Of a stretch of DNA of 64,000 nt, positions 18,257-23,886 are shown in pieces. Positions within the stretch are counted from its first letter, which is position 1; each line of letters opens with the position of its first letter. The stretch comes from Daejeonella oryzae DSM 19973 (GTDB lineage: Bacteria > Bacteroidota > Bacteroidia > Sphingobacteriales > Sphingobacteriaceae). The translations under genes were made by a program, and so were the position numbers. The DNA lies in NCBI RefSeq assembly GCF_000422945.1, contig NZ_AUHA01000002.1:682001-746000 (forward strand), written 5' to 3'. The notes under the pieces are model-generated. The model was not told the origin of the DNA, made no database searches, and was given only the letters and a program-made list of their open reading frames with translations.

Positions 18257-18278
18257 AAAGCGATCCGGAGATCGCTTT
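18257..18278 (-). terminator. Intrinsic terminator of rimP-nusA-infB
   Basis: A perfect 9-bp stem AAAGCGATC / GATCGCTTT closes a CGGA loop, with an A-run on the left that reads as U on the minus strand. It lies 22 bases past the infB stop. Confidence 0.85.
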
Positions 18279-18299: not shown

Positions 18300-21200
18300 T
18301 TACAATTTAGCTTTTACTTCTACCTGTTCGTATGATTCAACAATATCTCCAACTTCAATATTATTAAAGTTGTGAATATTCAATCCACATTCATAGCCTT
18401 TAGTAACTTCCTTAACGTCATCTTTAAATCGTTTTAAAGAAGCAAGTTCGCCGGCAAAAACAACAACACCATCACGTATAATACGGATTTTACTGTTTCT
18501 TGTGATCTTACCATCCAGAACCATACAGCCAGCAATAGTTCCAACTTTGGTTATTTTGAATACTTCGCGAATTTCTACGTTCGATGTAATTTTTTCTACG
18601 AATTCAGGAGCAAGCATACCTTCCATTGCAGCTTTCACTTCATTGATCGCATCGTAAATAATAGAATATAAACGTATATCAATTTGTTCCTGCTCGGCTA
18701 GTTTACGGGCACCTCCCGAAGGACGAACCTGGAAACCGATAATAATCGCATCTGATGCAGAAGCTAATAATACATCAGATTCTGAAATCTGACCTACCGA
18801 CTTATGAATAATATTAACCTGAATTTGTTCAGTAGAAAGTTTTAATAATGAATCGGATAATGCTTCAATTGAACCATCCACATCACCTTTAACAATGATA
18901 TTAAGTTCTTTAAAGTTTCCGATAGCCAAACGACGACCGATTTCATCCAGAGTGATATGTTTCTGAGTACGAAGTCCTTGCTCACGTTGTAATTGTAAAC
19001 GCTTATTAGCAACAGTACGTGCTTCAACTTCACTTTCGAGAGAGTTAAAACGATCTCCTGCGGTTGGCGCACCTTGCATACCCAATACCTGCACCGGTGT
19101 AGATGGTCCGGCCTCATTTACTTTTTGTCCGCGGTCATTATGCAGTGCTTTTACCCTACCGCTAAAACAGCCTGCTAGAATAGGATCACCAACTTTTAAA
19201 GTTCCTGCCTGAATTAATACTGTAGTAACAATTCCTCGGCCTTTATCCAGAGCTGATTCTATAACTGTACCTACGGCACGTTTATTAGGATTCGCCTTCA
19301 GATCTAACATGTCGGCTTCAAGCAAGACTTTTTCTAATAAAGCTTCAACTCCTAAACCTGTTTTACCTGAAATTTCCTGAGTTTGAAATTTACCACCCCA
19401 CTCTTCAACCATAATATTCATGGTTGATAACTGTTCGCGGATTTTATCTGTATTGGCTCCCGGTTTATCGATTTTACTGAATGCAAATACAATTGGTACG
19501 CCGGCAGCCTGAGCATGATTAATTGCTTCTTTAGTTTGAGGCATTACACTATCATCCGCAGCAATTACAATAATTGCAATATCGGTTACCTGAGCACCCC
19601 TGGCACGCATCGCAGTAAATGCTTCGTGACCCGGTGTATCCAGAAAAGTAACACTTCTTCCGTTTTCGAGTTTTACTTCATAAGCACCAATGTGCTGAGT
19701 AATACCACCTGCCTCACCGGCAATTACGTTTGCTTTACGTACAAAATCCAGTAATGATGTTTTACCATGATCGACGTGACCCATAACGGTAACGATTGGT
19801 GAACGGGTGATCAGATCTTCTTCTGAATCTACTTCATCCAGTACACCGATTTCTTCATCTTCCGGTTTTACAAACTCAACTTCGTAGCCAAACTCGTCGG
19901 CAACGATAGTTAAAGTTTCTGCATCCAGTCGCTGATTAATAGAAACGAACATTCCCAAACTCATGCAAGTTGAGATGATCTGAGTTACGGGAACATCAAG
20001 CATGTTAGCCAGTTCATTGGCTGTAACAAACTCTGTAACCCTGATTATTTTTGATTGCAACTCGCGTTCCATTGCTGCATCTTCTGCAGTTTGGGCAACA
20101 TCATCCCGCTTTTGACGGCGAAACTTTGCACGCTGAGCAAATTTACCAGACTTACCCGCACCGCTTAAACGAGCTAATGTGGCTTTAATCTGATCCTGAA
20201 TTTCTTTATCTGTTGGCTCTGCTTTAGGACCATCCGGTGTTCTTGCTTTATTCCTGAAATCAGGTCTTGCACCAGGGCCGCCTGTTTGAGGGCCACGGTT
20301 GTTTGGACCGGCATTACCCCGATATGGCTGACGTGCAGCTTGCGGCTGATTTGGACTTCCGGGTGTATTTGGTGCAGCCGGTCTGTTTGGACCTTGGCCG
20401 GCAACCCCAGGAGCATTGCCTCCTGTTGGATGATCTTTACGTTTACGTTTGCGTTTATGATCTCCGCCTGCAACATTTGAAGATGAAGCAACCGGCTGAC
20501 CGCGACGTGCAGGCTGAGTTGGTAATTCAATCTTACCAATTACATTCGGACCTGTTAAACGATCTGTTTTGGTTCTGAATAATTCTGGCGCACCGGTAGA
20601 AGAAGCCGGAACATCCGGTTTTTCTTCAGCCTTAACTTCGGGCTTAGGTGTTTCTGGTTTAGGCTTTTCTTCCTGAGCCTTAGGCTTTTCAGGAATAGCA
20701 ACCGGAACTTCTTCCTTTTTAATTTCAACTATCGGCTCAAGAGCTTTTTTCTCTTCAACAACTGGTTTTTCTTCCTTTTTTACTTCGGGAACTTCCGCTG
20801 GTTTTGGAACTTCAACAGGCTTTGCCTCTATAATTTTTTCCGGTTCAGAAACTTTTATTTCCTCAACTTTCACAATTTCTGGAGCAGGAGCAACCGGCTT
20901 TTCAGCTTCCGGAGCTTTTTTGTCAGGGCGGGTTTTAGGGTTGAGATCATTTAAATTAATCATACCAACTACCTTAACACCAGGCAAGGATCCTTCAACT
21001 GCTTTAGGTTCTTCTGCTTTAGGCTCAGAAACTTCTGGCTTTGGCTTTTCTACCGCAGGAGGAATGAAACTATTTACGTTTTTAATCAGGATCTCTTCCT
21101 GTTCAAATTCCTTAGAACGCTGTGATTCTATTCTCTCCGGAGCTACTGGTGTTTCATCCCGACGGATTTTACCAATTACAATTTGCTTGGCTTCTTCCTT

Positions 21201-21380
21201 AACGATTTTATCACCCTGAAACTCTTTCAAAAGAACATCATACATCTCATCGGTGAGTTTAGTATTAGGTCGGGCTTCAACCTGATGACCTTTTTTTCCT
21301 AAAAACTCAACCGCTGTGGATAATCCAATATTCAGCTCTTTTGCAGCTTTAAGTAAATTTGTGCTTTTACCTTCTGACAT
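18300..21380 (-). CDS. infB: Translation initiation factor IF-2
   Basis: IF-2 is the GTPase that brings initiator tRNA to the 30S subunit. At 1026 residues it is long. It has an IF2_N helical start ([19 protein letters not shown]), then a ~250-residue disordered stretch rich in Pro, Glu and Lys (~90-270), and a basic Gly/Asn/Arg/Pro stretch (~280-390). A second IF2_N-like domain precedes the G domain with GHVDHGKT (533-540), DTPGH and SKID. Domains II-IV follow, to the C-terminal VEVKAKL. Last gene of rimP-nusA-infB, with its own possible promoter and a terminator. The N-terminal charge-rich region is probably an unfolded linker. Confidence 0.97.
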
Positions 21381-21503: not shown

Positions 21504-22739
21504 CTATTCAAATTCTGATCTTAAAATATCCAGTACATCTTTTACTGTATTTTCTTCAAGATCTGTCCGTTTAACCAGTTCGTCTGTTGAAAGTTCTAAA
21601 ATAGATTTTGCAGTATCTAAACCTATTTTCTTAAACTCATCAATTACCCAACTTTCAATTTCATCAGAGAATTCTTCAATATCTACATCCTCATCATCTT
21701 CCTGCGCTTCGCGATAAACATCAATTTCATATCCGGTTAATTTTCCGGCTAATTTGATATTGTGACCACCGCGTCCGATGGCTAAAGAAACCTGATCTGG
21801 TTTTAAATAAACCGCAGCCCGTTTTTCTTCATCATCTAATTTAATCGTGGTGATTTTTGCCGGACTTAAGGCTCTTTGAATATATAACGAAATGTTATTG
21901 GTATAATTTATAACATCAATGTTTTCATTTTTTAATTCTCTAACAATTCCATGAATACGGGAACCTTTCATACCCACACAGGCACCAACCGGATCGATAC
22001 GATCATCGTAAGATTCGACTGCAACCTTTGCCCTTTCACCAGGTTCACGTACAATCTTTTTAATGGTAATCAAACCATCAAAGATTTCAGGAACTTCCAT
22101 TTCAAACAACCGCTGTAAAAACTCAGGAGCTGTACGGCTAATAATAATTTTAGGATTATTGTTAACCATTTCCACTTTCTCGATGATTGCTCTTACAGAA
22201 TCTCCTTTTTTGAAATAATCTGCAGGAATTTGCTCCGTTTTTGGCAAGAGAAGCTCATTGCCTTCATCATCTAAAACCAGGGTTTCTTTTTTCCAAACCT
22301 GGTATACTTCACCGGTAACAATCTCGCCTACGCGATCTTTATATTTTTTATAAATTTCGTCTTTCTCTAATTCCAGAACTTTAGAAACAAGTGTTTGACG
22401 AGCAGCTAAAATTGCACGGCGACCAAAGCTTTCTAAAGTTATCTGTTCAATAAAATCATCACCTACTTCTAATTCAGGATCAATCTTTTTCACTTCGGCC
22501 AGTTCTATCTCCAGATCATCATCCTCAGAAAAACCGTCTTCCATTACTGTACGTGTACGCCAGATTTCTAAATCTCCATTATCCGGATTTACGATTACAT
22601 CGCAATTTTCATCAGTACCGTAACGCTTACGCAGCATACTACGGAACACTTCTTCCAAAACACTAATTACCGTTGGGCGGTCAATATTTTTAAAGTCCTT
22701 AAACTCCTGGAATGAATCAATTAAATTTATATTGCTCAT
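21504..22739 (-). CDS. nusA: Transcription termination/antitermination factor NusA
   Basis: NusA binds RNA polymerase and nascent RNA, promoting pausing and termination. The 411 residues match the Bacteroidota form, which is shorter than E. coli NusA (495) because the C-terminal acidic repeats are largely missing. It has an N-terminal RNAP-binding domain (EVFRSMLRKRYG), S1 domain (~130-200, VGEIVTGEVYQV), KH1 (VGACVGMKGSRIHGIVREL) and KH2 (VSLAIGRGGHNIKLAGKLTG). A short helical C-terminal segment follows. It sits 5 bases after rimP, so the two are translated from one mRNA. Confidence 0.96.
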   Translation of the reverse strand: MSNINLIDSFQEFKDFKNIDRPTVISVLEEVFRSMLRKRYGTDENCDVIVNPDNGDLEIWRTRTVMEDGFSEDDDLEIELAEVKKIDPELEVGDDFIEQITLESFGRRAILAARQTLVSKVLELEKDEIYKKYKDRVGEIVTGEVYQVWKKETLVLDDEGNELLLPKTEQIPADYFKKGDSVRAIIEKVEMVNNNPKIIISRTAPEFLQRLFEMEVPEIFDGLITIKKIVREPGERAKVAVESYDDRIDPVGACVGMKGSRIHGIVRELKNENIDVINYTNNISLYIQRALSPAKITTIKLDDEEKRAAVYLKPDQVSLAIGRGGHNIKLAGKLTGYEIDVYREAQEDDEDVDIEEFSDEIESWVIDEFKKIGLDTAKSILELSTDELVKRTDLEENTVKDVLDILRSEFE

Positions 22740-22744
22740 CTGTT

Positions 22745-23209
22745 CTACTTGAATGAAATTAACACCTTAGTTTCAGCTATTTGGTCAAACGGGATAAAAT
22801 TATTGACCAGTTGTGCCTTCTTCCCTTTTTCTTTTATATTTTCTTCTACAGTTATCCCACTTTCTTCAACCTGTAGTAATTTGGCTTCTTTGCTGTTATT
22901 ATCTGTTAGTTTAACAGTTACTGATCTGCCTATGTTTTTACTGTACTGACGAATAGATTTAAACGGCGCATCTAAACCGGGAGATGAAACCTCCAGATGA
23001 TAGGCCAGCTCAATTACATTCTCTTCTTCGAGATAAAAACCAACATGCCGGCTTATTCCGGCACAATCCTGTATTCCAACACCCTGATCACCATCTATTA
23101 AAATAGTCAAAAGTCCGCTCGCATGCATTTTTACGTCTACAATAAACAAGTCAGGGCGGTCGGCAATTTTTTCTTCTACTAACTCAATTACCCGTTTTTC
23201 TATATCCAT
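22745..23209 (-). CDS. rimP: Ribosome maturation factor RimP
   Basis: RimP assists maturation of the 30S subunit. The product is 154 residues from the ATG at 23209; a GTG one codon earlier is less likely. The N-terminal alpha/beta domain contains ILIDGDQGVGIQDCAGISR, and YHLEVSSPGLDAPFKS is the family hallmark. A C-terminal SH3-like domain follows from about residue 85. First gene of rimP-nusA-infB. Its leader holds a promoter and a terminator-like hairpin (listed separately), so expression may be controlled by transcription attenuation. Confidence 0.94.
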   Translation of the reverse strand: MDIEKRVIELVEEKIADRPDLFIVDVKMHASGLLTILIDGDQGVGIQDCAGISRHVGFYLEEENVIELAYHLEVSSPGLDAPFKSIRQYSKNIGRSVTVKLTDNNSKEAKLLQVEESGITVEENIKEKGKKAQLVNNFIPFDQIAETKVLISFK

Positions 23210-23243
23210 CACTATTTAATATTCCGGAATAAAACCGGCAGGT

Positions 23244-23275
23244 AAAAAAAAGAGCCCCGGTATTAGCGGGACTCT
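23244..23275 (-). terminator. Terminator-like hairpin in the rimP leader
   Basis: On the minus strand there is a 9-bp stem AGAGTCCCG / CGGGGCTCT (one G-U pair) with a 7-nt loop, directly followed by eight T. It lies between a good promoter (23289-23318) and the rimP ATG (23209), 31 bases before the gene begins to be translated. It could be an attenuator of the nusA operon, or simply the terminator of the lipoprotein gene ending at 23437, although 160 bases is far for that. Confidence 0.7.
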
Positions 23276-23288
23276 CCTTAGATTATTG

Positions 23289-23318
23289 CAAATATAGATA
23301 AATTCTTTTAGCGACAAA
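23289..23318 (-). promoter_or_regulatory. Promoter of rimP-nusA-infB
   Basis: The minus strand reads TTTG, 18 nt, TATATTTG, close to the Bacteroidota TTTG-N19-TAnnTTTG consensus. Transcription would start near 23283, just before the leader hairpin. Confidence 0.65.
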
Positions 23319-23436: not shown

Positions 23437-23886
23437 CTAAAAATCAAACACTACTTCTTGTACCGAGTTTTTTGAAGGAAGTTTCCCGCTTTTTATAATA
23501 TCTGCAGGTTCAACAAACAGTTTACGGGCATAACAGTGTACAAAATAGGAATGCTTTTTCTGAAAAAATTCCAGAGGCGTAAAACTTACCATGGAGCCTA
23601 TAACCTGATACGTTCCTTTTAAGGGGCGCTGGATTTCGCGAAGTTCAGGATTAGCGGGCTCCAAATAAACTGCAAAAAAGCTGTTCCACTCTTTTTCAGT
23701 CAGAGAATCAGCCTTAAAATCTGCCAGTACATCTGCCGGAATTCCATGTAATTCTACCGATGAACTATCCTGCGAAAGCTTGATAACCAATAAGGTTGAG
23801 TTATCATCAGCTGTTTCAGAAGGTAGACAACCGTTTAATGACAAGAAAATAAATAAAATAATGTAAAACAGATTTTCCACCTTCAT
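23437..23886 (-). CDS. Hypothetical lipoprotein
   Basis: A 149-residue protein I do not recognise. The N-terminus has a hydrophobic stretch (ILFIFLSLNGC) with a lipobox-like LNGC at residues 17-20, so it is probably a lipoprotein. The rest is a predicted mixed alpha/beta domain of ~125 residues with no known motif, containing LVIKLSQDSSSVELHGIPADV and a C-terminal QEVVFDF. It is divergent from, and overlaps at the 5' end, the open frame that precedes the holin-like gene. The function is unknown; it appears to be a single-gene unit. Confidence 0.6.
   Translation of the reverse strand: MKVENLFYIILFIFLSLNGCLPSETADDNSTLLVIKLSQDSSSVELHGIPADVLADFKADSLTEKEWNSFFAVYLEPANPELREIQRPLKGTYQVIGSMVSFTPLEFFQKKHSYFVHCYARKLFVEPADIIKSGKLPSKNSVQEVVFDF

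Follow-up and report, generated by a model that had tools for sequence, protein, structure and literature searches.

A promoter-proximal, terminator-like hairpin before rimP-nusA-infB in class Bacteroidia as a probable attenuator

Attenuators in rimP leaders, lying 4-130 nt before the gene and without a visible antiterminator, have been described, and NusA was proposed as their general controller in the accessible part of the article (Naville and Gautheret 2010, PMC2965389), whose main text lacks words for Bacteroidetes. In B. subtilis, NusA controls itself by NusA-stimulated termination in the leader, as stated in the accessible part of PMC12288461 with Mondal 2016 as the primary work, and the length of this nusA leader is given as 180 nt in PMC2965389. 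The E. coli terminators t1 and t2 are located upstream of rimP, behind metY (PMC6511841, accessible part). Additionally, a 5' element before rimP was reported from Flavobacterium psychrophilum, having no Rfam match and being conserved in other Flavobacteriaceae genera, and the TAnnTTTG promoter box of the same species was placed at -12 to -5 (PMC9723704, accessible part). The kind of element treated here is thus already known from the rimP leaders of PMC2965389, from E. coli t1/t2 and from the Flavobacteriaceae 5' element.

The window, referring to the whole stretch of 64,000 nucleotides from Daejeonella oryzae DSM 19973 that was analysed, carries rimP, nusA and infB on the minus strand with a terminator-like hairpin before rimP (Table 1). 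TTTG is the -33 promoter motif of Bacteroidota, the primary sigma factor of which is unusual. An earlier note on this DNA had described TTTG-N18-TATATTTG followed by a 9-bp hairpin and eight U before rimP, which was borne out on the minus-strand sequence; one of the nine pairs is G-U, and the GC-rich hairpin stands directly 5' of the T-rich run, as is usual for an intrinsic terminator. By the F. psychrophilum box rule, the start would be A23284, the stem would begin at +10 and the last U would fall at +41 in a predicted leader of about 75 nt, in agreement with the same note's expectation of a start just before the hairpin and a stop at about 40 nt. Folding of the 41-nt predicted RNA gave -17.6 kcal/mol (z -4.05; lower than in any of 200 shuffles), the 9-bp stem alone giving -13.8 kcal/mol, and revealed an alternative 13-pair fold in which nucleotides preceding the stem are able to pair with some of the T-run. 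The hairpin was not listed by the automatic terminator scan of the window, perhaps owing to this extension of the stem into the T-run. Between the U-tract and rimP, no second copy of the promoter motif TANNTTTG was found in the window, and a weak 4-bp hairpin, CCGG-N7-CCGG (23238-23224, minus strand), lies near the start codon.

Table 1. Features of the rimP-nusA-infB operon and its leader (positions in the window)
Feature	Position	Strand	Basis or remark
TTTG, -33 element of the predicted promoter	23315..23318	-	sequence
TATATTTG, -7 element	23289..23296	-	sequence; 18-nt spacer from TTTG; TAnnTTTG box documented in PMC9723704 (accessible part)
Predicted transcription start, A	23284..23284	-	placed by the -12 to -5 box position in F. 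psychrophilum
5' arm of terminator-like hairpin, AGAGTCCCG	23267..23275	-	C-rich; arms swapped, as in most of the window's genus
Hairpin loop, CTAATAC, 7 nt	23260..23266	-	
3' arm of terminator-like hairpin, CGGGGCTCT	23251..23259	-	
U-tract, 8 T	23244..23251	-	first T is the last stem base; predicted release at about +41
Leader remainder, 34 nt	23210..23243	-	from last T to rimP ATG (23209-23207)
rimP	22745..23209	-	Pfam PF02576, PF17384
nusA	21504..22739	-	Pfam PF08529, PF13184, PF00575
infB (IF-2)	18300..21380	-	Pfam PF11987, PF00009, PF04760
Terminator-like hairpin just 3' of infB, probable operon end	18257..18278	-	terminator scan

The locus resembles the described rimP leaders in several respects, as the terminator is found before rimP with 34 nt from its last T to the ATG, inside the 4-130 nt range, no antiterminator is visible in the window with about 10 nt between the inferred start and the stem, and most Bacteroidia leaders examined have a 5' arm with GGG and a 3' arm with CCC. 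The published stem rule GGGc...gCCC is matched loosely by the GGGGAC...GTCCCC of most other Bacteroidia leaders, while the window itself reads CCCG...CGGG. Different from those leaders, the Bacteroidia stem begins about 11 nt from the predicted start and has the core GGGGAC/GTCCCC, with the arms swapped in the window's genus. With B. subtilis nusA the proposed logic is shared, namely a leader terminator combined with NusA feedback, and NusA dependence is carried over to the present leader by analogy; the B. subtilis leader is 180 nt long, in contrast to the roughly 75 nt predicted in the window. The E. coli metY-rimP-nusA-infB operon likewise has terminators between promoter and rimP, but there they form a tandem pair preceded by a tRNA gene and several promoters, and the different E. 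coli layout put forward in the earlier note agrees both with the accessible part of PMC6511841 and with the K-12 sequence. In the latter (L244, 600-720, minus strand), the first leader hairpin GCCCCGATTTATCGGGG (CCCCGA..TCGGGG) is very similar to the hairpin with swapped arms in the window's genus, and the second, GGGCTTTAGGCCC, resembles the common orientation.

The F. psychrophilum 5' element is not called a terminator in the accessible part of PMC9723704; it is probably the same element in another family. The Rfam family RF01770 (rimP) shares the gene context, but its model (cut-off 47 bits) gave no match at this leader among the window matches at E up to 5. A search over the genome's own sequence with RF01770 returned 66 sub-threshold matches (150 of 559 candidates scored), none of them at this leader, and when 13 kb of the window and nine leaders were scanned against Rfam, all matches stayed below threshold. 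The top literature matches, with most subscription journals and supplements outside their scope, included nothing closer and no published experiment on termination or NusA dependence of this leader in Bacteroidota.

Conservation was examined in class Bacteroidia, where 115 of 120 genomes yielded a RimP, each contributing its leader. A single scorer found a terminator-like hairpin in 106 of 110 leaders versus 7 of 550 dinucleotide shuffles, and at scores of 28 or more in 102 of 110 versus 1 of 550; three of the 106 are wrong, distant picks (L089, L100 and L110). The five leaders with the weakest RimP matches hold the hairpin in four cases, and 20 further in-class leaders showed it in 19, with TANNTTTG within 70 nt upstream in 19 and a GGG(G/A)(A/G)C core in 15. 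Overall, 129 of 135 in-class rimP leaders were scored positive, three picks being wrong, and six were without a scored terminator; the hairpin is therefore kept before rimP in relatives, the check that the earlier note had named for it.

The place of the hairpin relative to the promoter is conserved as well. Of 106 leaders, 103 have TANNTTTG in the 70 nt preceding the hairpin, versus 14 of 763 control blocks, and in these 103 the first base of the stem falls between predicted +5 and +27 (median +11). At each of the first eight positions past the outermost G-C pair, T is found in 67 to 100 of 101 leaders, a count on hairpins preselected for T-rich tails that includes two wrong picks; the ninth position has T in 51 of 101 and the background level follows. 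The predicted stem stability (median -15.7 kcal/mol for 103 leaders from many genomes) is close to that of 28 3' terminators found behind 223 frames of the window's genome (-15.8 kcal/mol). The U-tract is broken in L077, L096, L100 and L110. In L100 and L110, where the scorer's picks were wrong, GGGGAC/GTCCCC stems are present with poor U-tracts, and these two and L077, combining a conserved stem with a poor U-tract, are possibly weak or lost terminators. A further stretch, ATCTGA or ATCTTGA between TTTG and the stem, lies at the predicted 5' end in 28 of 72 leaders of the family f1 (for example L004, L010 and L040) and in none of 31 others.

The usual arms in the class are GAGGGGAC/GTCCCCTC. 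By the rule set here, the 5' arm is G-rich in 83 of 110 leaders, swapped in 18 (17 from the window's genus and the wrong pick L110) and neither in nine. Alignment of 81 of the 83 G-rich leaders (L089 and L101 dropped) gave the consensus AAAGAGGGGAC-N-GTCCCCTCTTTT, in which the stem is widely conserved and the loop and flanks vary. For a 12-pair stem drawn by hand, 93.3% of cells pair versus 89.5% in shuffles (a value reached by 0 of 500; slid partners gave no more than 73%), a share that leans towards pairing because the aligned leaders were chosen on the presence of a hairpin. Both sides changed in 36 cells versus 10.3 in shuffles (0 of 500 as high), and seven pairs show such changes versus 4.6 (27 of 500 as high). 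Hardly any variation is seen in the GGG/CCC core, which suggests a constraint beyond plain termination.

Pattern searches over whole genomes returned to the same site. The pattern AGGGGACN{3,8}GTCCCCT was found in 52 of 120 genomes and its backwards-read control in 10 of 120; as a 14-base arm pattern is about as rare per genome as chance gives, the evidence lies in its place rather than its rarity. In 48 of the 52 genomes the single place is at rimP (coordinates compared by eye), the other four being G054, with two places elsewhere, G075, G085 and G087. In G087, where the protein search found no RimP, the pattern stands at C12:96597-96613, and a diverged rimP may lie next to it. A GTDB scan for GAGGGGACN{3,8}GTCCCCTCTTTT, gene-blind though using a pattern derived from these leaders, returned at least 119 stretches, and among the matches listed a RimP frame is found just downstream in 113 of 119. 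Stretches L128, L130, L167, L176 and L182 have no such frame, four of them being titled as other phyla (80 of 119 titles visible), and L174 is cut by the contig end. Among the matches listed, TANNTTTG is present in the upstream 60 nt of 100 of 113 rimP stretches, and one of the 13 without it offers 10 nt only. For stretch L127, from Pedobacter frigiditerrae, a query from the window's family scored best among 20 RimP queries, which agrees with the Sphingobacteriaceae named in the earlier note.

A covariance model, R1, matched at least 114 of 148 genomes of the phylum, and since many of these matches are ordinary terminators, leaders were chosen by their place next to RimP instead. Compared by eye, the R1 matches just before RimP are, among the matches listed, all in genomes of the class. 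Five genomes of the genus g98, from another class (G127, G144, G207, G214 and G251), have an R1 match on the RimP contig at a distance of 27-29 kb from RimP (judged by eye), a hint that some other terminator-like hairpin is conserved there at a constant position.

In the window's genus the arms are exchanged, C-rich then G-rich, in 17 of 20 genomes, as GAGCCCCG/CGGGGCTC or close variants such as GAGTCCCG, and the common form is kept in three (G005, G014 and G015). The exact swapped pattern is found in 13 of the 20 genomes, in 12 of them at rimP. The stem follows TTTG by 8-14 nt in swapped leaders and by 8-24 nt in the rest of the family, the corresponding distances from hairpin to gene being 40-46 nt and 16-83 nt. 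A RimP+NusA tree of 33 rows requires three changes for the swap, all inside the genus (bootstrap 2-3), with 1% of bootstrap trees allowing one change and the strongly supported branches forcing only one. The pairing is kept but the sequence is not; judged from the sequences, the arms are replaceable at a site where a paired stem and a U-run persist.

Outside the class, 25 of 40 rimP leaders hold a terminator-like hairpin with a score of at least 25 (shuffles 1 of 400), and the same scorer found none in the remaining 15. The GGGGAC core is in none of these 25 hairpins, and TANNTTTG lies within 70 nt upstream in six of the leaders. Their 5' arms are G-rich in 14, C-rich in 10 and tied in one, going clade by clade in both senses. 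Arms found clade-wise in these 40 leaders (L269-L308) include TCGCCC/GGGCGA, AAGTGGGG/CCCCACTT, ATGGGC/GCCCAT and ATAGCCCG/CGGGCTAT. Apparently new are the extension of the element across the class, its fixed position near +11, the link of a near-fixed GGGGAC/GTCCCC core to rimP and the turnover of its arms, including the swap in one genus.

We regard the hairpin as probably a promoter-proximal intrinsic terminator, that is an attenuator, of rimP-nusA-infB, with NusA as its likely controller. RNA polymerase would start at about 23284, make about 41 nt and be released at the U-tract unless it reads into rimP, the split between release and read-through being set by proteins on the polymerase; more NusA would give more release, and less NusA more operon mRNA. 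As the stop signal is found at the same place in most relatives examined, the operon is probably controlled by the frequency of polymerase read-through. Termination in vivo is what we infer here, and control of read-through would most likely act through the operon's own NusA, a role borrowed from B. subtilis. The roughly 10 nt before the stem, counted from the inferred start, are too short for a leader peptide or a competing antiterminator to fit, which leaves factors on the polymerase as controllers. No second TANNTTTG lies between hairpin and rimP in 97 of 103 leaders (six have one); operon transcripts must pass the hairpin, barring an unseen promoter downstream. A counterpoint to NusA control is that NusA may not yet be loaded at +41. 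Classical antitermination and a leader peptide were rejected for lack of room and of any ATG before the stem in the window.

An attenuator governed by another factor, including RimP or IF-2 feedback, NusG, Rho, growth-rate cues or the NTP level, fits the anatomical evidence equally well, and the near-fixed GGG/CCC core of the aligned leaders suggests a specific reader; RimP was also considered by Naville and Gautheret in the accessible part of PMC2965389. We nevertheless consider this reading rather unlikely, as experimental support was found for NusA only, in another phylum (PMC12288461, accessible part). It is unlikely, too, that a dedicated RNA-binding surface, of NusA or RimP, recognises the GGGGAC/GTCCCC hairpin so as to form a class-wide, sequence-specific feedback switch at the transcript start, in which case the arm swap of the genus would mark a change of reader; one fixed sequence reader is opposed by that swap and by the differing arms in other classes. 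A non-terminating role as a 5'-terminal stem-loop, in mRNA protection or in shaping translation, would suit the closeness to the predicted 5' end, the ability of the pre-stem bases to pair with part of the U-run and the broken U-tracts of some leaders. The eight T-rich positions exceed what such pairing needs, though the leaders were selected for T-rich tails, and the stability is like that of 3' terminators, which makes this role quite improbable.

The position of the neighbouring gene bears on whether the hairpin is instead the 3' terminator of the upstream gene, placed by chance after the rimP promoter. That gene, called a lipoprotein in the earlier note and showing no Pfam match, is co-directional in the window, and a rough count of the longest upstream frame over 110 genomes gave 72 co-directional and 30 divergent cases, with no such frame in eight. 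It ends at 23437, about 160 nt from the hairpin with the promoter motif in between, and the motif remains near the hairpin across leaders. Pfam searches on nine divergent upstream frames gave six clear matches (L097, L098, L101, L031, L049 and L057), two at the cut-off (L081 and L104) and none for L090; the hairpin is still present before rimP in all six leaders with clear matches and was scored in eight of the nine, the exception L104 having an imperfect stem and T-run that the scorer missed. As the upstream gene is often divergent in relatives, we hold it to be very improbable that the hairpin is its terminator; the closeness to the promoter motif and the divergent neighbours together indicate that it most likely belongs to the downstream rimP operon, and the earlier note's judgement that it suits the upstream gene poorly is upheld. 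That the released RNA of about 41 nt acts as a small regulatory RNA appears similarly remote, since its loop and flanks are variable, its arms differ between clades and the ATCTGA-like stretch is common to 28 of 72 family leaders only, in spite of the RNA being short and structured with a widely conserved stem.

With the attenuator reading, the control of NusA, an essential elongation factor, becomes directly testable in Bacteroidota. A class-conserved terminator that begins some ten bases after the predicted start offers a simple, natural test construct for the question of how early NusA can act, and through the arm swap in a single genus the needs of pairing can be told apart from the contribution of sequence.

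Over 464 kb of the same genome, 5 of 511 TANNTTTG sites have such a hairpin within 35 nt, the rimP hairpin of the window counted. In 400 kb outside the window, 14 of 210 frames of at least 200 aa have a terminator-like hairpin in the upstream 250 nt, one of the 14 hairpins having TANNTTTG at most 35 nt before it. At L255:6113-6196 (plus strand; contig C1 near 126113), TANNTTTG is followed 11 nt on by a terminator-like hairpin and then by a frame start, making this site a second candidate promoter-proximal attenuator.
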